Origin: Roseovarius marisflavi
GTDB taxonomy: Bacteria; Pseudomonadota; Alphaproteobacteria; Rhodobacterales; Rhodobacteraceae
DNA length: 64,000 bases
Reading direction: 5' to 3'
Assembly (NCBI RefSeq): GCF_900142625.1
Contig: NZ_FRBN01000001.1
Location: 62,001 to 126,000, forward strand
In this document: piece by piece, positions 19,007-30,485 of the stretch
Layout: each line of letters opens with the position of its first letter
Numbering within the stretch: position 1 is the first letter of the stretch
The notes under the pieces: generated by a model
What the model saw: only the letters and a program-made list of their open reading frames with translations
Database searches by the model: none
Told to the model about the DNA's origin: nothing
Made by a program: the position numbers and the translations under genes

Positions 19007-19224
19007 TGGGCGGTGGATTTGGCATGGGCGGTTACGGCATGGGCGGCGGCGGGCTGATTTTCATGGTGATCTTTGCGGCGCTGTTGGTGATCCCGTTCTG
19101 GCGCTTGCTGCCAAAGTTCGGAATCCTCAACTGGGTGGCGATCGTGGCCGTCATCCCTCTTGGGGCGTTGATCCTTTTGTGGGTCATGGCGTTCCGGGAC
19201 AAGCTTGACGGAGGGCGGTCATGA
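19003..19224 (+). CDS. 73-aa Gly/Met-rich membrane protein in the nuo operon
   Basis: The first 17 residues are almost only Gly and Met with single Phe and Tyr ([17 protein letters not shown]). Two hydrophobic helices follow (about 18-34 and 44-62), then a charged tail, RDKLDGGRS. It overlaps nuoC by four bases and nuoD by four bases, so translation is tightly coupled. I do not recognise a named family. Similar unidentified frames sit in the complex I operons of Paracoccus and Rhodobacter. A role in complex I assembly is only an inference from position. Confidence 0.7.
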
Positions 19225-20441
19225 TGGACGGCACCAAATTCGATGACGCCGTGACCGGCGAACAGAAAATCCGCAATTTCAACATCAACTTCGGCCCGCA
19301 ACACCCTGCAGCGCATGGTGTTTTGCGCCTTGTGCTTGAGCTTGACGGCGAGATTGTCGAGCGTTGCGATCCGCATATCGGCCTGCTGCACCGTGGCACC
19401 GAAAAGCTGATGGAATCGCGCACCTATCTGCAAAATCTGCCGTATTTCGACCGGCTCGATTACGTGGCGCCGATGAATCAGGAACATGCCTGGTGTCTGG
19501 TGATCGAAAAGCTGACCGGTGTCGAAGTGCCGCGTCGCGCCTCGCTGATCCGGGTGCTTTATTCCGAGATTGGCCGTATCCTCAATCACCTGCTCAACGT
19601 CACCACGCAGGCGATGGATGTGGGCGCTCTGACGCCGCCGCTCTGGGGGTTTGAAGAACGCGAAAAGCTGATGTGCTTTTACGAGCGGGCCTGCGGTGCG
19701 CGTCTGCATGCGGCCTATTTCCGGCCCGGCGGCGTGCATCAGGATCTGCCGCCCGACCTGATCGACGACATCGAGACATGGGCCAGGGAGTTCCCGCGCG
19801 TTCTTGCCGATATTGACGGGCTTTTGACCGAAAACCGCATCTTCAAGCAACGCAACGCCGATATCGGCGTGGTGAGCGAGCAAGAGGCGCTGGACTGGGG
19901 CTTTTCCGGCGTCATGGTGCGCGGCTCTGGCATGGCCTGGGATTTGCGCCGCGCGCAGCCCTATGAATGCTATGACGAGTTCGAGTTCCAGATTCCCGTC
20001 GGCAAGAACGGCGATTGCTATGACCGCTATCTTGTCCGGATGGAGGAAATGCGCCAGTCGCTGCTGATCATCCATCAGGCGATTGAAAAGCTGCGCGCCC
20101 CCGAGGGGCAGGGCGATGTGCTTGCCCGAGGCAAGATCACGCCCCCCTCGCGCGGCGAGATGAAAACCTCGATGGAGGCGCTCATTCACCACTTCAAGCT
20201 TTACACCGAGGGCTTTCACGTCCCCGCAGGCGAGGTTTATGCCGCGGTCGAGGCGCCCAAGGGCGAGTTCGGCGTTTACCTTGTGGCCGATGGCACCAAC
20301 AAACCCTACCGCGCCAAGATTCGCGCACCGGGCTTTTTGCATCTTCAGGCGATGGACCACATCGCCAGCGGTCATCAGCTTGCCGATGTGGCGGCGATCA
20401 TCGGAACGATGGATGTCGTCTTTGGGGAGATTGACCGCTAA
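19221..20441 (+). CDS. nuoD: NADH-quinone oxidoreductase subunit D
   Basis: NuoD forms the quinone-binding pocket with NuoB and descends from the large subunit of NiFe hydrogenases. The 406-aa protein contains [35 protein letters not shown] and [12 protein letters not shown], including the quinone-contacting histidine (in GPQHPAAHG) and tyrosine (in DYVAPMNQ). The C-terminus ends in the conserved [12 protein letters not shown]. Length is normal. The stop shares a base with the next gene (TAATG). Confidence 0.97.
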
Positions 20442-20803
20442 TGACGCTGACAAGCCTTGCCATAGCGCTTTCGGGCGCAGGGGTGCTGGTGACGGGGGCG
20501 CTTGCGGCCCTGTTTCTGCGCGACCCGGTGGCAGGGATGGCGCAGACCACGCATCGGCTGGAAAAACTGCCCGAGGTGATGGCGGATCGCTATGTCGGCA
20601 TGGTTGTACTGGCCCTTGCGGCGACGCTTTATGGTGACCTCAAGGTGATTGCGGTGCTGTTTGCGGTGTTTGCCTATACCAGCTTTCACGATGCATGGAT
20701 TTATGCGCGCGGCGGATTTCCGATTGCCAAGCATGTCAGCGCCGGTGTGGCGGGACTGATCGTGGCAATTGTCGCCATGAAAGCAATGGGGCAGGGCGCT
20801 TGA
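20441..20803 (+). CDS. 120-aa polytopic membrane protein in the nuo operon, function unknown
   Basis: Three to four hydrophobic segments are visible: residues ~5-26, ~51-69, ~70-88 and ~97-114. Short charged loops hold HRLEKLPEVMADRY and HDAWIYARGG. The pattern suggests a small integral membrane protein. No family is recognised with confidence. It is joined to nuoD (TAATG) and to the secreted protein that follows (TGATG) by one-base overlaps, so it must be produced with complex I. Confidence 0.7.
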   Translation: MTLTSLAIALSGAGVLVTGALAALFLRDPVAGMAQTTHRLEKLPEVMADRYVGMVVLALAATLYGDLKVIAVLFAVFAYTSFHDAWIYARGGFPIAKHVSAGVAGLIVAIVAMKAMGQGA

Positions 20804-21558
20804 TGAGAAACGTCATGTTTGGACTGGCTTTGGCGACCTTGCCCGCTCTGGTGCAGGCACAAACCGTAAGCTCCGATCGGATCGAGGCCTTTGTCGCGGT
20901 CATGGCCGAAAACGGCTGTCGCATGTCACCGCACCGCGCCAATGTGATCATGCCAGAGGCCGGGTTTGACGATATGGCCGAAACCAAGGCGATCACCGAA
21001 CGCCTGGTCGAGGAAGAGCGCGCGCGCATCATGGATGGGCAATTGGTGGTCTTTGGCGGGGCCTGCGGTGGCAAGCTTGATTATTCCGGGCGCGAACGAT
21101 TTTTCGCGGCCCTGGCCGACAATAACTGCGTGATGACTACCGAGCAGGCACCAACCCTGCTTGGCCGGGTCGGCGTCGAGATGGCCGAAGTGCGTTTGCT
21201 GATGGAAAAGATGCTGCGGATGAGCGAAGTTCGTCTCTCCGAGGATGAGAAGGCGGTCTATCTTGAACAGGGCCTGTGCGACACGTTCAAGGGCCTCTCG
21301 GCGGGCATGGTCAACAGCGCGCCGACCCTCAAGGCCGCGCCGCGCAGTGCTGGGCAACTGCGCCAGGACTTTCTGGCCTTCATGGTGACCGAAGGCTGTT
21401 CCATGACCCGTGGCGAAGCCGATAACAAGCTTCCCGCAGCGGGCTTTTCGGTCAAGGAAATGCGCCCGGTGATTGGCAAGATGCTCGCCGAGGGCGAGGC
21501 TGTCATGGATACCGACGCCGATACACTGACGATTAACAAGGAGCTATGTGCCCAATGA
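20803..21558 (+). CDS. Secreted protein with three tandem two-cysteine modules
   Basis: The 251-aa product has a signal peptide ending near residue 19 (LPALVQAQT). The rest is three copies of a ~65-residue module, each opening with F-x-A-x-M/L-x-x-[NG]-C-x-M and closing with a cysteine near the repeat end: Cys39/Cys88, Cys109/Cys159 and Cys199/Cys249. The intervals are 48, 49 and 49 residues. Each copy also has a G-[FV] followed by an acidic helix and a Met/Leu-rich helix. The regular pairing suggests one disulfide per module in the periplasm. The next gene carries a fourth copy. No described family is recognised. Confidence 0.75.
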   Translation: MRNVMFGLALATLPALVQAQTVSSDRIEAFVAVMAENGCRMSPHRANVIMPEAGFDDMAETKAITERLVEEERARIMDGQLVVFGGACGGKLDYSGRERFFAALADNNCVMTTEQAPTLLGRVGVEMAEVRLLMEKMLRMSEVRLSEDEKAVYLEQGLCDTFKGLSAGMVNSAPTLKAAPRSAGQLRQDFLAFMVTEGCSMTRGEADNKLPAAGFSVKEMRPVIGKMLAEGEAVMDTDADTLTINKELCAQ

Positions 21559-21836
21559 TGCGCAAGACAGTATTCGCCGGGGCCTGCCTTGGACTGACCG
21601 CCGCCTGTGCCCTGCCGCCGCAAGGCGTGTCGACCCAGGACATCGCGGCCTATGACACGGCTGTCGCCAGTGTCGGATGTACGCTGGTCGGTGAATCCGA
21701 TTACCTTCCGGTCGAATTCCAGACCGGGCTGACCCGTCAGCAGGTGCTCGATATCACGGCCTATAAACTTACCTCCGGCGGGGCCGAGCGGCTTGCCGAC
21801 GGGGGCGTCAAACTGACCACAGGAGCCTGTGCATAG
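21555..21836 (+). CDS. Lipoprotein with one copy of the same two-cysteine module
   Basis: The 93-aa product has a lipoprotein signal (GLTAAC, lipidated Cys18). Its mature part has Cys42 and Cys92, separated by 49 residues, exactly as in modules 2 and 3 of the preceding protein. It also shares the GC[ST][LM] opening, an LP then G[LF] segment and an end one residue after the last cysteine. It overlaps the preceding gene (ATGATG). I infer that the two proteins are related in evolution and that one is anchored to a membrane while the other is free or bound to it. Confidence 0.72.
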   Translation: MMRKTVFAGACLGLTAACALPPQGVSTQDIAAYDTAVASVGCTLVGESDYLPVEFQTGLTRQQVLDITAYKLTSGGAERLADGGVKLTTGACA

Positions 21837-23054
21837 ATGCTACGCCGTCTTCATCACGAGCAGCCCGAAAGCTTTGCCTTCACCCCCGCCAACCAGGAGT
21901 GGGCCGAAGGGCAGATCAGCAAATACCCCGAGGGCCGTCAGGCCAGCGCGATCATTCCGCTGCTCTGGCGCGCGCAGGAACAGGAAAGCTGGCTCAGCCG
22001 TCCGGCGATCGAGCATGTCGCCGATATGCTTGGCATGGATTATATCCGCGCCCTCGAAGTGGCGACCTTCTATTTCATGTTCCAGCTTCAGCCGGTCGGG
22101 ACCGTGGCGCATATTCAGGTCTGTGGCACCACCACCTGCATGATCTGCGGCGCCGAGGATCTGATCGCGGTCTGTCGCGAAAAGATCGCCCCGCGCGCGC
22201 ATGAACTGTCGGCGGATGGCAAGTTTTCCTGGGAAGAGGTCGAATGCCTTGGCGCCTGCGCCAACGCGCCGATGGCCCAGATCGGCAAGGATTACTATGA
22301 GGATCTGACCGCCGAGGGTTTCGCGCAGATGATCGACGATCTGGCCGCCGGCAAGGTGCCCACACCGGGCCCGCAAAATGGCCGCTATGCCGCCGAGCCG
22401 AAATCCGGCCTCACCAGCCTGACCGAGTTTGACAGTGGCCGTGCCAAATACAATGCAAGCGCACAACTGGCCAGCGACATTGGCGACACCGTCAAGCGGA
22501 TTGATGGCACCGAGGTGCCGATCCTGACGCCCTGGCGAGACAAGGGGGCCAATCACAAGCCCGCCGCGCCCTCGGTCAAGCAGAATGAGGCGCCGGTCGA
22601 TGTGAGCGCCAAGGCCAAGGCGCCCAAACCGGCGGCCAAGGCAAAGGCCGATGTGACCGGTGCCACCAAGGCCGAGGCACAGGCCAAGACCAAGGCGAAG
22701 CCAGCCGTCAAACCGGCCGCCAAGCCGGTGAAAACCCCGGCAGAGCCAGAGGCGCCGACCGGGCCGGGCAAAAAGCCCCGCATGATGAAAGCCCCGCGCA
22801 AATCAGGGGCGGATGATCTCAAGATGATCAAGGGCGTTGGGCCAAAGCTTGAAAAGCTGCTGAATGACATGGGCTTTTACCACTTTGATCAGATTGCAAA
22901 ATGGACGGAGGACGAGGTTAGCTGGGTCGATCAGAACCTTGAAGGCTTCAAGGGGCGGGTCAGCCGGGACACTTGGGTTGAGCAGGCGAAATTGCTGGCT
23001 GAGGGGAAAGAGACGGAGTTCTCTGCCCGGGCCAAGAAGGGCGGCATTTATTGA
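21837..23054 (+). CDS. nuoE: NADH-quinone oxidoreductase subunit E with C-terminal helix-hairpin-helix extension
   Basis: Residues 1 to ~165 are the normal NuoE thioredoxin-like subunit with the [2Fe-2S] cluster N1a: CGTTTC and [10 protein letters not shown] supply the four ligands. From ~165 to ~320 runs an Ala/Lys/Pro-rich linker. Residues 325-405 form a helix-hairpin-helix-like domain ([17 protein letters not shown] ... [14 protein letters not shown]). This doubles the usual length; long NuoE forms are known in Rhodobacter. The same terminal domain recurs, about 63 of 81 residues identical by eye, in the next gene, and a related domain caps ribosomal protein L21 in many alphaproteobacteria. 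The start follows the lipoprotein stop directly. Confidence 0.95.
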
Positions 23055-23090: not shown

Positions 23091-23774
23091 ATGTTGGACA
23101 GATCGAAATTAGGCACCTGCCAGCTTGTTTGCTGGGGACTGGCCGTCGTGGTCGGCGTGCTGGTTCTATGGTCGACATCCGGCGCGGTTGGCTTTTTGGC
23201 CGCGCTGCTGTTGGGTCTGGCCTGTGCCGCGTTTTTCGGCCTCGTGACCACGCGGTTGATCTGTACCGGCCAGACGTCGGAGGATCGCGGCCGCGAGGGC
23301 ACGGATGCCACGACCCCGGCGGCAGAGCCGACCACCACGGTCGCGACCGCGCCCAGAACAGCCCCCCCGGCGGCAGAGAGCGGCGCGACGGCGGTGAAAC
23401 CGGACACGACGCCAAACGGTGAAGAAAGTGTGTCGGCGCCCAAGGCAAAGCCCGAGGCAAGCGGTTCACCGGCAGGGGCCGGAACGCGCCCCCAGGCCCT
23501 GAGCGCACCCAAAGGCGGCAAGGCCGATGATCTCAAGCAGATCAAGGGCGTCGGGCCGAAACTTGAGCAACTGTGCAACGAGCTTGGCTTTTACCACTTT
23601 GACCAGATCGCCGGCTGGGGTGCAGACGAGGTGACTTGGGTCGACCAGAACCTCAAGGGGTTCAAGGGCCGGGTCAGCCGCGACAACTGGGTCGAGCAGG
23701 CCAAGGTGCTGGCGGCGGGCGGTGAGACCGAGTTTTCCAAACGCGTCGCCAAGGGCGGCGTATACGAAGGATGA
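23091..23774 (+). CDS. Membrane-anchored paralogue of the NuoE C-terminal domain
   Basis: The 227-aa product has two N-terminal hydrophobic segments (about residues 12-28 and 33-54), a Pro/Ala/Thr-rich linker (~60-140), and a C-terminal domain nearly matching NuoE residues 325-405 ([20 protein letters not shown] ... SRDNWVEQAKVLAAG). This looks like an internal duplication in which the NuoE extension was joined to a membrane anchor. Its domain could bind the same partner as the NuoE tail, for example nucleic acid or a protein, at the membrane. Function is unknown. Its stop overlaps the next gene. Confidence 0.8.
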   Translation: MLDRSKLGTCQLVCWGLAVVVGVLVLWSTSGAVGFLAALLLGLACAAFFGLVTTRLICTGQTSEDRGREGTDATTPAAEPTTTVATAPRTAPPAAESGATAVKPDTTPNGEESVSAPKAKPEASGSPAGAGTRPQALSAPKGGKADDLKQIKGVGPKLEQLCNELGFYHFDQIAGWGADEVTWVDQNLKGFKGRVSRDNWVEQAKVLAAGGETEFSKRVAKGGVYEG

Positions 23775-24010
23775 TGCAAGCGATGGGCGAGCGCGAGAAA
23801 GATCAACAGATGGCACGCAAGGGCCGCACCGCCGGTGTGGTCATTGCGGCGACCATGCTGATCTGGCTGGCTGCCCAATGGCTGGGGGGACAGATGGGCT
23901 GGCCGGTACGGTTTGTCTTTCTGTTCGATCTTGCCGCGATTGCCGCGCTCATATGGGCGTTGGTGGTGACCTATCAAATCTGGCGGCTGCGCCAGGATAA
24001 TCAGAGGTAG
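23771..24010 (+). CDS. 79-aa membrane protein resembling DUF5337
   Basis: A charged N-terminus (GEREKDQQMARKGRTAG) is followed by two hydrophobic helices (about residues 22-39 and 46-69) and a basic/polar end. Size, order of segments and position before nuoF resemble the small DUF5337 proteins of Rhodobacterales; this is from memory. Several in-frame ATGs lie within the first 14 codons, so the start is uncertain; the one overlapping the previous stop (ATGATG) is used. Confidence 0.72.
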   Translation: MMQAMGEREKDQQMARKGRTAGVVIAATMLIWLAAQWLGGQMGWPVRFVFLFDLAAIAALIWALVVTYQIWRLRQDNQR

Positions 24011-25314: not shown

Positions 25315-25413
25315 ATGATGGGCATCTTTGTAACATTCGGGCTCACGATGGCGGGGCTTTGCGCTCTGACCCTGACGCGGCCGACCCTTGCACCGCAGGA
25401 GGCACGGGCATGA
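25315..25413 (+). CDS. 32-aa single-helix membrane peptide after nuoF
   Basis: The reading frame begins three bases after the nuoF stop and overlaps the next gene by four bases (ATGA). It encodes one hydrophobic helix, GIFVTFGLTMAGLCALTL, and a short polar tail. Coupling on both sides argues for translation, but the product is so short that it may simply carry ribosomes from nuoF to the lipoprotein gene. Confidence 0.4.
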   Translation: MMGIFVTFGLTMAGLCALTLTRPTLAPQEARA

Positions 25414-25742
25414 AACATGCGGTGATGATAGCGCTGGCGGTTTTGATGCTTGGTGCCTGCGCCGAGCGGTCGGAACGCGTCTATTTCGAGGGGAATTACT
25501 ATCCTCCCAAGACGCGGGCCGAAAAGGACGACCGCCGCAACTTCACCGCCTCGGTGCGGCGCGCCTCGCGCGGGATTGAGGGCGCGCAGAAGGCCGCTCT
25601 GCATGAGGCGACGCGCTATTGTCTGGAAAGTTTTGGCACCTCCGAAATCGAATGGGTCGGCGTGGCCGAAGGGCAAGGGCCGATCTACGGCCGCTCGGGC
25701 GATACGGTGTCGGTGACTGGAAGATGCATAATATGGTCGTGA
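25410..25742 (+). CDS. Small lipoprotein in the nuo operon, function unknown
   Basis: The 110-aa product has a lipobox (MLGAC, lipidated Cys17). It has a basic middle region (RAEKDDRRNFTASVRRASRG) and two later cysteines (RYCLESFG and GRCIIWS) that could pair. No family is recognised. It overlaps genes on both sides, placing it within the complex I transcription unit. It is one of three lipoproteins encoded there. Confidence 0.68.
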   Translation: MKHAVMIALAVLMLGACAERSERVYFEGNYYPPKTRAEKDDRRNFTASVRRASRGIEGAQKAALHEATRYCLESFGTSEIEWVGVAEGQGPIYGRSGDTVSVTGRCIIWS

Positions 25743-25993: not shown

Positions 25994-27982
25994 ATGTCTG
26001 ACCTACGCAAGATCATCATCGACGATCAGGAGATCGAGGTAGAAGGGGCAATGACCCTGATCCAGGCCTGTGAGGTCGCTGGCGTTGAAGTGCCGCGGTT
26101 TTGCTATCACGAGCGGCTGTCGATTGCCGGCAACTGCCGGATGTGTCTGGTCGAGGTCGTCGGCGGGCCGCCCAAACCGGCGGCCAGCTGCGCCATGCAG
26201 GTCAAGGACTTGCGCCCCGGCCCCGAAGGCCAGCCGCCGGTGGTGAAAACCAACAGCCCGATGGTCAAGAAGGCCCGCGAAGGCGTGATGGAATTCCTGC
26301 TTATCAACCACCCGCTGGATTGCCCGATCTGCGATCAGGGCGGCGAATGCGATCTTCAGGATCAGGCGATGGCCTATGGCGTCGACTTCAGCCGCTATCG
26401 CGAGCCCAAGCGCGCCAGCGAAGACCTTGATCTTGGCCCGCTGGTCGAAACCCACATGACGCGCTGCATTTCCTGCACCCGCTGTGTGCGGTTCACCTCT
26501 GAGGTGGCCGGCATCATGCAGATGGGCCAGACCGGTCGCGGCGAAGATGCCGAGATCACAAGCTATCTGGGCCAGACCCTCAACAGCAACCTTCAGGGCA
26601 ATATCATCGATCTCTGCCCGGTTGGCGCGCTTGTCAGCAAGCCCTATGCCTTCACCGCGCGGCCCTGGGAGTTGACCAAGACCGAAACCATCGACGTGAT
26701 GGACGCGCTTGGCAGCAATATCCGGGTTGATTGCAAGGGCCGCGAAGTGATGCGCATTCTGCCGCGCAACCATGATGGCGTGAACGAGGAATGGATTTCT
26801 GACAAGACCCGCTTTGTCTGGGACGGTCTGCGCCGTCAGCGGCTGGACAAGCCCTATATCCGTGAAAACGGCAAGCTGCGCCCGGCCACATGGGGCGAGG
26901 CGCTTGCCAAGGCCTCTGAGGCAATCAAGGGCGCCAGGAAAGTTGCGGGTCTGGTCGGTGATCTGGTGCCGGTCGAGGCGGCGTTTGCGCTCAAGCAACT
27001 GGTCGAGGGGCAGGGCGGACAGGTTGAATGCCGCACCGACAAGGCCCGCTTGCCCATCGGCAACCGAAGCGCCTATGTCGGCAATGTCGCCATCGAAGAC
27101 CTTGATAATGCAAAGAATATCGTTCTGATCGGCACCGACCCGGTGGTCGAGGCGCCGGTGCTCAATGCCCGCATGCGCCGCGCCTGGATCAATGGCGCGA
27201 ACGTCACGGTGGTCGGCCCTGCGATTGATCTGACCTATGACTATGCCCATGCCGGCACCGACCGTGCCGCGCTTGACGGCTTGAGCGTGCCCGAGGACGC
27301 AATCGTGATCGTTGGCCAGGGCGCGCTGCGCGAGGCGGACGGCGAAGCGGTTCTGGCTGCCGCCATGGCACTTTCGGGCCGGATGCTGGTGCTGCACAGC
27401 GCCGCTGGACGGGTTGGCGCGATGGATGTGGGCGCGGTGACCGAGGGCGGTCTTGAGGCCGCCATCGAGGGCGCCGATGTGATCTATAACCTTGGCGCCG
27501 ACGAGGTTGAGATCGCCGCCGGGCCGTTCGTGATCTACCAGGGAAGCCACGGCGATCGCGGCGCACATCGCGCCGACGTGATCCTGCCGGGGGCCGCCTA
27601 TACCGAGGAACAGGGCCTGTTTGTCAACACCGAAGGGCGCCCGCAACTGGCGCTGCGCGCCGGGTTTGCGCCGGGCGAGGCCAAGGAAAACTGGGCCGTG
27701 CTGCGCGCGCTGTCGGGTGAAATCGGGGCGGTGCTTGGCTATGACAGCATCGCGCAACTGCGCAAGGCGCTGATCAAAGAGGTGCCGCATCTCAAAAAGA
27801 TCGACAAGGTGCCCGAAAACGACTGGCAACCGCTAGCCACGGCCAAACTTGGTAGGGCCGATTTCCGCACCGCCGTGTCGGATTTCTACCTGAGCAACCC
27901 GATTGCGCGCGCAAGCGAGGTGATGGGCACGCTGAGCGCCAATGCCAAGGCACGGGCCGCAAGCCCGCTTGCCGCAGAGTGA
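25994..27982 (+). CDS. nuoG: NADH-quinone oxidoreductase subunit G
   Basis: NuoG is the largest peripheral subunit, holding clusters N1b, N4 and N5. The 662-aa product has an N-terminal ferredoxin-like domain ([24 protein letters not shown]1b), the [13 protein letters not shown] segment preceded by the histidine-containing N5 region, and the N4 ligands [11 protein letters not shown]. The rest is a molybdopterin-oxidoreductase-like domain that has lost its cofactor. Length is close to that of mitochondrial and Paracoccus forms and shorter than E. coli NuoG. The ribosome site precedes the ATG in GTGAGAACAG. Confidence 0.96.
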
Positions 27983-27984
27983 AG

Positions 27985-28386
27985 ATGCGCGCGGGCCTCA
28001 TAACGCCTGTGGCGCTCTCCCTTTTGGGGGGGCTGAGTGGCTGCGCCGAGGCCGGCGCAGGCAATGGCGCAGCGTTTCAACCCGATTACGGTGGGGTTGA
28101 GACGCGGCTTTTGGATGGGGATCTGGTGAATTTCCACGTGAGCATGCGCGGTGCGCGTGGCCGCGAGGATGTCGATCGCTATGCCGAATGCGCCGCGGCG
28201 CAATACGCTTTGATCCGCGGCTATGGATTTGCGCGCCATCTGCGCACGAATCTCGCCGAAGAGGGTGGCGTCTGGCGCGGCGATGCGATCTATACCATCT
28301 CGGCGGCATTGCCCCGAGGTCTGAAGACAATCGACGCCGAAGTCGTCGCCGCCAATTGTGCGGAAAATGGAATACCGATGGTGTGA
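27985..28386 (+). CDS. Small lipoprotein between nuoG and nuoH, function unknown
   Basis: The 133-aa product has a lipobox, GLSGC, with lipidated Cys near residue 20. The mature part has two more cysteines (ECAAAQY and AANCAENG) flanking a basic helix ([14 protein letters not shown]). A GTG overlapping the nuoG stop gives a start two codons earlier; the ATG is preferred because it gives a normal signal. No family is recognised. Confidence 0.65.
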
Positions 28387-29580: not shown

Positions 29581-30075
29581 ATGGCAAAGATAGATTACGG
29601 GCGCGCGGCGGGATATTTCCTGCTGTCGGACTTTATCAAAGGGTTTCAGCTTGGGCTGAAATACTTTTTCGCGCCCAAGGCGACGCTGAACTATCCGCAT
29701 GAAAAGGGCCCGCTTTCCCCGCGCTTTCGCGGCGAACATGCGCTGCGCCGTTATGCCAATGGCGAAGAGCGCTGTATCGCCTGCAAGCTCTGCGAGGCGA
29801 TTTGCCCGGCGCAGGCGATCACCATCGACGCCGAACCCCGCGATGACGGATCGCGCCGCACCACGCGTTATGACATCGACATGACCAAATGCATCTATTG
29901 CGGCTTCTGCCAGGAGGCTTGCCCGGTGGATGCCATCGTCGAGGGGCCGAATTTCGAATTCGCCACCGAGACCCGCGAAGAGCTGTTTTACGACAAGTCC
30001 CGCCTCTTGGCCAACGGTGACCGTTGGGAAGCCGAGATTGCCCGCAACCTTGAAATGGATGCACCTTACAGATGA
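29581..30075 (+). CDS. nuoI: NADH-quinone oxidoreductase subunit I
   Basis: NuoI carries two [4Fe-4S] clusters, N6a and N6b, that bridge the chain to N2 in NuoB. In the 164-aa product the ligands are in [16 protein letters not shown] and [16 protein letters not shown]. The N-terminal part includes an amphipathic helix for membrane attachment and the conserved [15 protein letters not shown] precedes the ATG. The stop overlaps the next gene (ATGA). Confidence 0.97.
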
Positions 30076-30485
30076 CCGATCCAAAAAACCCCTTTGAAAT
30101 GATGATGAACCAGGCGCAGGAAATGGCCAAGGCCATGAATCCCGCGCTCGAATCCTTTTCGCCGAAGGGGTTTGAAAAGCTCTGGCCGACCATGCCCAAG
30201 GAATTCATGGAGATGAGTTTCGGCAAGGGCGCGAGCAAGGACGGGCTTGACGCCAAGACCCGGCTTTTGCTGACGCTGGCCGGGCTGACCATGCTGGGCG
30301 CGCAGAGCGACACCCAGATCCGCCTGACCGTGCGCCATGCGCTAGAGGCCGGGGCCACGAAGGAGGAGATCGCCGAAACCATCGCACAGATGTCGATGTT
30401 TGCCGGTATTCCGTCGATGACCCGCGCGATGGATTTCGCGCGCGAGGTGATGGACGAGAGCGAAGAAAAAGGAAAAGACAAATGA
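30072..30485 (+). CDS. Carboxymuconolactone-decarboxylase-like (AhpD-fold) protein in the nuo operon
   Basis: The 137-aa product fits the CMD/AhpD fold: after a Met-rich amphipathic N-terminus ([17 protein letters not shown]) it has [20 protein letters not shown], then [21 protein letters not shown] and a final helix. The CxxC redox pair of peroxidase-like AhpD members is absent, so it is not an obvious alkylhydroperoxidase. It overlaps nuoI and nuoJ by four bases each. A chaperone-like or binding role is possible; the reaction, if any, is unknown. Confidence 0.8.

Follow-up and report, generated by a model that had tools for sequence, protein, structure and literature searches.

The nuo/nqo operons of alphaproteobacteria, as known from older work on Paracoccus and Rhodobacter, contain unidentified reading frames (URFs), which are small non-core genes interspersed among the nuo genes, as are the two genes described here. 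A literature search by loose term matching returned no description of a module such as theirs, either among the URFs or elsewhere. In mitochondria, complex I carries the intermembrane-space CHCH subunits NDUFA8 and NDUFS5, with their twin CX9C motifs. These small, disulfide-held helical proteins outside the membrane arm would be the functional analogue of what an earlier note on this DNA had proposed, namely, a disulfide-stabilized periplasmic repeat that acts with complex I. In contrast to the CHCH proteins, the module has no CX9C motif but a single cysteine pair 47 to 51 positions apart, and in our searches it is found in only one bacterial family. In the structure of P. denitrificans complex I, extra subunits (NDUFS4, NDUFS6, NDUFA12, and a PIMT) were described (PMC11522691). 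They are likewise non-core alphaproteobacterial complex I proteins; in a comparison by subunit list, the extra subunits reported there include no module-like protein (PMC11522691).

Two module genes at the nuoD-nuoE junction

The window analyzed here is a stretch of 64,000 nucleotides from Roseovarius marisflavi. Within it, the insertion site is bordered on the left by a gene at 19221..20441, which served as the anchor and which we take, from its sequence, to be nuoD, and on the right by nuoE at 21837..23054 (PF01257, E = 4.9e-51); these genes and all those between them lie on the plus strand. A 120-aa multi-helix membrane protein encoded at 20441..20803, between nuoD and the first module gene, matched DUF4267 (PF14087) with E = 0.005 and 17.2 bits, below the cut-off of 27.8. 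It is followed by the gene for a 251-aa, putatively secreted protein with three two-cysteine modules (P251, 20803..21558), recognized from its open reading frame, its cysteines, and a database search that yielded 33 rows including the window's own, and by the gene for a single-module lipoprotein (21555..21836, with the ATG at 21555 or 21558), for which 87 database rows were obtained. P251 appears to begin with a type I signal peptide of about 19 residues, the mature protein starting at about residue 20, and in the lipoprotein the sequence LTAAC resembles a lipobox, with Cys18 as the lipobox cysteine (both judged by eye); its only other cysteine outside the module is Cys11, numbered, like Cys18, from the ATG at 21555.

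Module 1 of P251 (Cys39/Cys88) spans 20869..21069, module 2 (Cys109/Cys159) spans 21076..21282, and module 3 (Cys199/Cys249) spans 21346..21552, while module 4, in the lipoprotein (Cys42/Cys92), spans 21627..21833. In a whole-genome search with the module profile A4 (see below), they were matched with E values of 7.6e-20, 4.9e-20, 4.6e-21, and 5.8e-15, respectively, all four being rows already part of that profile. The coordinates, protein lengths, and cysteine pairs given in the earlier note were all reproduced, as were the 48, 49, 49, and 49 residues enclosed by the pairs and a G-[FVL] turn 15, 15, 15, and 16 residues past the first cysteine. Its statement that both genes are coupled into the nuo operon also holds: the ATG of P251 overlaps the preceding stop codon by one base, the ATG of the lipoprotein overlaps the P251 stop by four bases (ATGA), and the TAG of the lipoprotein directly abuts the ATG of nuoE.

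Homology and copy number of the module

The cysteine pattern of both families is not due to chance. Exactly six cysteines were present in all 32 P251-family rows when counting began 22 residues ahead of the first module cysteine (the window's own row included, one fragment left out), and the 50-residue step between the cysteines was kept in 86 of 87 lipoprotein-family rows. By hhalign, modules 1 to 3 of P251 are homologous, with E values of 4e-8 (modules 1 and 2), 4e-11 (1 and 3), and 8e-13 (2 and 3). When only close families were used, the lipoprotein aligned to module 1 with a probability of 28.9% (E = 6e-4), to module 2 with 3.2%, and to module 3 with 22.0%, and homology was not accepted on these values. 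It was accepted on family-wide profile matches. Against a module profile drawn from many genera (42 rows, the six lipoprotein-type rows left out), the lipoprotein family reached 97.1% with E = 5e-11 and a score of 50.9. Shuffling the columns 100 times, with the cysteine columns kept in place, gave scores of at most 16.5. A stricter profile of 29 rows gave 93.2% and E = 2.8e-7, a value that comes without a shuffle control. With hmmsearch, 143 of 145 mutually related lipoprotein sequences outscored every one of 3045 controls made by shuffling or reversal. The two-cysteine module common to P251 and the lipoprotein, in 3 + 1 copies, was thus borne out (E from 4e-8 to 8e-13 among modules 1 to 3 and 5e-11 for the lipoprotein), and its proposed origin by duplication is supported by the profile homology of the modules. 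Judged from their sequences, P251 and the lipoprotein almost certainly form one family of ∼67-residue modules, and the location of this family at nuo is equally firm.

Profile A4 comprises 48 aligned modules. Their cysteine pair is invariant, partly by choice, since rows were chosen for having such a pair, and no other column is even 90% conserved. The cysteines lie 47 to 51 positions apart in the aligned modules and 53 in two others. Read by eye, the hydrophobic pattern fits helix-helix-turn-helix-strand-strand. Because conservation is limited to the cysteine pair and this core pattern, the disulfide is probably structural, and a role in binding rather than catalysis would follow. Each unit may be a small, winged-helix-like domain of three helices and a β-hairpin, in which helix 1 and the hairpin would be clamped together at their ends by the disulfide; such a module would have no catalytic residues and would work by binding. 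The tandem winged-helix domains in the C-terminal part of SelB (1lva) show a succession of helix, helix, turn, helix, and two strands that the pattern read by eye in the module would resemble. The module differs from them in being exported-looking and cysteine paired, and the match of A4 to SelB (E = 0.0021) spans 32 profile positions and is outscored by designed proteins, so that it is no proof of kinship.

At two to ten modules per protein, longer chains occur beside the single-module form, and the latter prevails: 29 of the 40 family genomes with modules had a single module match. A 782-aa protein in the nuoD-nuoE gap of one locus (L118) contains ten modules and a metagenomic protein (P0122) eight, in both cases joined by short linkers, whereas two loci (L063 and L126) have three separate single-module genes each. 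The module is thus a chain unit that duplicates, with one to ten copies per protein. By eye, module proteins appear to be either lipoproteins or carriers of a type I signal peptide. When the ten-module protein was used as the query, the matches among 8000 scored candidates were itself and P0122 only. In four genera, the gap encodes a secreted-looking protein of 186 to 208 aa that was aligned to the module with 90.8% and E = 1.2e-6 (four sequences, without shuffle control) and that may hold an enlarged module. In a poorly resolved tree of the 48 modules, the lipoprotein type was separated from most multi-module rows.

Estimated against four named loci, dN/dS was 0.11 to 0.22 for P251 and the lipoprotein versus 0.05 to 0.09 for NuoD and NuoE, values that are rough because dS exceeded 1 in many of these comparisons; dN of the module proteins was several times that of the two subunits. 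On these rough figures, both module genes appear to be under purifying selection, i.e., maintained, yet freer than core subunits.

In library searches, P251, the lipoprotein, and six relatives had no match that exceeded the cut-offs of Pfam and NCBIfam, a two-module protein from outside the nuo operon (L206) had none in Pfam, and PHROGs matched neither P251 nor the lipoprotein nor the ten-module protein. DUF4148 (PF13663) scored 16.1 against residues 1 to 64 of the lipoprotein, under its cut-off of 27, and tblastn against plasmids gave no match for the two-module or the ten-module protein. Among PDB sequences, P251 and its profile matched at best a designed protein (E = 0.0025) and the lipoprotein none; A4 gave weak partial matches, designed helical proteins first and then the SelB winged helices. 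The PDB sequence matches of both proteins and of their profiles included no complex I chain. As far as searched, in Pfam, NCBIfam, and PHROGs and with no convincing PDB relative, the module is undescribed, as the earlier note had supposed. It is new to these libraries; its boundaries are clear, its cysteine signature is strict, and the evolution of its copy number is visible.

Distribution in the genus, family, and class

Within the genus, NuoE was present in all 30 genomes searched, and 29 of them had a module protein in the nuoD-nuoE gap (own genome included in both counts). Seven gaps encoded the triple-module protein plus the lipoprotein, 19 the lipoprotein only, and 3 a divergent triple only (L018, L019, and L031), leaving a single gap with neither triple nor lipoprotein (L026). 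All 14 loci matched by the triple-protein query carried the triple in the nuoD-nuoE gap, and in 12 of them it was accompanied by the lipoprotein. One Roseovarius locus (L043) had two triples in tandem, and a Maritimibacter locus (L044) had the triple only.

The family was represented by 120 genomes of as many genera, each of which contained nuoE, and the region upstream of nuoE was examined in the 119 other than our own. According to open reading frames, 39 of these 119 loci had module genes in the nuoD-nuoE gap. Among the remainder, the gap measured 60 bases or fewer in 32 loci, under 200 bases in a further 23, and more in 24, and one locus had no nuoD in reach; in total, 80 of the 120 genera were without the module at nuo. 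The stop codon of the last module gene overlapped the start of nuoE by one base in 11 of the 39 loci. What looks, by eye, like a further diverged module at one locus (L129) was left out of the counts. At another locus (L093), the nuoD-nuoE gap encodes a secreted-looking protein of a different kind, which contains an internal repeat (L093:932-1447); by eye, the gap of L083 encodes a relative.

A six-frame whole-genome search with A4 detected modules in 40 of the 120 family genomes at E ≤ 0.001, with up to 50 candidates per genome scored in a first look (up to 20 in the class-wide set below). An initial profile, A1, under-counted the family, with matches in 10 of 40 relatives (one match being weak), and A4 took its place. 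Of 66 module places, 59 (in 39 genomes) lay within 2.1 kb of nuoE, just upstream of it, a proportion to be read with the caveat that A4 was built from nuoD-nuoE gap sequences and may favour such relatives. The possibility that homologues reside mostly away from nuo genes, raised in the earlier note, was thus checked and did not hold. Seven places were elsewhere (two each in G157, G110, and G066 and one in G114). One module counted by open reading frames in the gap (L135, genome G094) had no match in the A4 genome search. In our own genome, only the four nuo modules matched A4 well, the next match having an E value of 0.10. Neither the rest of the window nor 60 stretches of 19.9 kb, each beginning 900 bases ahead of nuoE, contained a further module. 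Class-wide, 3 of 289 genomes matched, all of the window's family and our own included; one of them (G168) had two module places far apart, which stand outside the seven mentioned above. Among the genomes searched, the module is confined to the GTDB family of R. marisflavi.

In three of the genera with module places away from nuo (L205, L206, and L207), a module protein is encoded inside a conserved two-component cluster, with two modules in L205 and L206 and one in L207. This cluster (L206:1002-7818, also in L205 and L207) comprises a VWA protein, a protein with a molybdopterin-binding domain match, a histidine kinase, a response regulator, the module protein, and a 193-aa secreted-looking protein. 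At L208:7016-8344, three modules with proline-rich linkers (PPPPRMNQ repeats) lie on a contig other than that of nuo.

Further small genes of the nuo cluster were compared by tblastn in 60 family loci, half of them from genomes with a nuo module (30 of the 38 besides our own) and half from genomes without one. A lipoprotein gene (by eye) at 27979-28386, between nuoG and nuoH, encodes two further cysteines without a module match and occurred in 48 of the 60 loci (26 of the 30 module-bearing loci and 22 of the 30 others); its protein is a candidate complex I partner, and a broader one than the module. A third lipoprotein (by eye) is encoded at 25359-25742, between nuoF and nuoG, and was found in 28 of the 60 loci. 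Between nuoI and nuoJ (30072-30485), a carboxymuconolactone decarboxylase-type protein (PF02627, E = 2.2e-16) was present in 51 of the 60. Between nuoE and nuoF, a 227-aa protein (23091-23774) resembles, at a score under the cut-off, the C-terminal part of NF009040, a model for long NuoE (E = 2.5e-41), and it adjoins a DUF5337 gene at 23771-24010 (PF17272, E = 3.4e-36).

Possible roles of the module

A complex I role of the module is a guess from gene position. Since the module proteins are made with complex I and look exported, they would most likely assist the enzyme from its periplasmic side without being essential to it. We tentatively favor, at somewhat short of an even chance, a dispensable, noncatalytic, periplasmic binding module serving complex I. 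It would act at the periplasmic face of the enzyme or of its assembly intermediates, with the lipoprotein holding one module at a membrane and P251 presenting three in tandem. With 80 of 120 genera without the module at nuo and 32 of 119 gaps of 60 bases or fewer, complex I does not need it, and co-occurrence does not tie the two together (nuoE in 120 of 120 genomes, the module in 40). A coupling to the membrane arm was rejected on the length of NuoL, which did not differ with the module's presence or absence (medians of 710.5 and 705 in 28 and 30 genomes of the 60-locus set; P = 0.73). Among the 13 genes whose lengths were compared, NuoG (677 against 672; P = 5.8e-5) and DUF5337 (P = 0.03) differed, with P values that are uncorrected and not phylogeny-aware. 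What stood of the earlier interpretation is a repeated, duplicated, exported-looking module in the nuo operon; that it acts with complex I is unsupported so far, given its absence from about two-thirds of the genera, its 25 gains or losses on a quick NuoD+NuoE tree, the indifference of NuoL length, and the paralogues in a two-component cluster.

The main alternative is a passenger at a permissive site, which we regard as quite possible, if not what we favor. The nuoD-nuoE gap would tolerate inserts, envelope proteins would settle there for steady expression, vertical inheritance would keep their position, and the module's job in the envelope would be unrelated to complex I. The 24 loci with gaps of at least 200 bases and no module point this way: unrelated genes are found there too, 10 of the gaps holding a relative of the 120-aa membrane protein (by eye), a few other secreted proteins, and some no convincing gene. 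On a quick NuoD+NuoE tree, module presence changed state 25 times (27 to 39 times, mean of 33.6, in 200 label shuffles), and the NuoL lengths and the two-component paralogues are in keeping with it as well. However, in the stretches examined, module genes occurred only in this nuo gap, often touching nuoE, and with 59 of 66 places still at nuo, relocations have been few. A historical location at nuo is part of another explanation, an extended cell-envelope scaffold or adhesin in which tandem disulfide beads would act by length and avidity. Bead numbers of 3, 8, and 10, the short linkers of the eight- and ten-module proteins, and the secreted and lipid-anchored forms seen by eye would suit such a function, but the single match in 29 of 40 genomes makes it unlikely.

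A redox module, whose cysteine pair would change between its thiol and disulfide states in response to respiratory activity and would report on or relay electrons from the periplasm, appears very improbable. The pair is present in all rows of both families except one, the genes are colocated with a respiratory enzyme, and in three genera a module protein gene has genes for a histidine kinase and response regulator as neighbors; yet the cysteines, 47 to 51 positions apart (53 in two cases), do not form a CXXC motif, and the remaining columns are unconserved, as for a structural disulfide. Returning to a complex I binding module, a more specific version would see family-specific periplasmic clamps whose bead number, from one to ten, sets the hold in supercomplexes or in the assembled state, a proposal to which we give little chance. 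If true, these proteins would share the role of the mitochondrial disulfide-held intermembrane-space subunits by independent origin, with a bead number that evolves quickly.

In a large bacterial family of ecological importance, the module keeps a nearly fixed address within the complex I operon. Should it make contact with complex I, it would represent a periplasmic accessory that is not among the subunits described in the P. denitrificans structure. If it is unrelated to complex I, the nuoD-nuoE junction would be a long-lived landing site for envelope genes, an outcome that would caution against inferring function from operon position.
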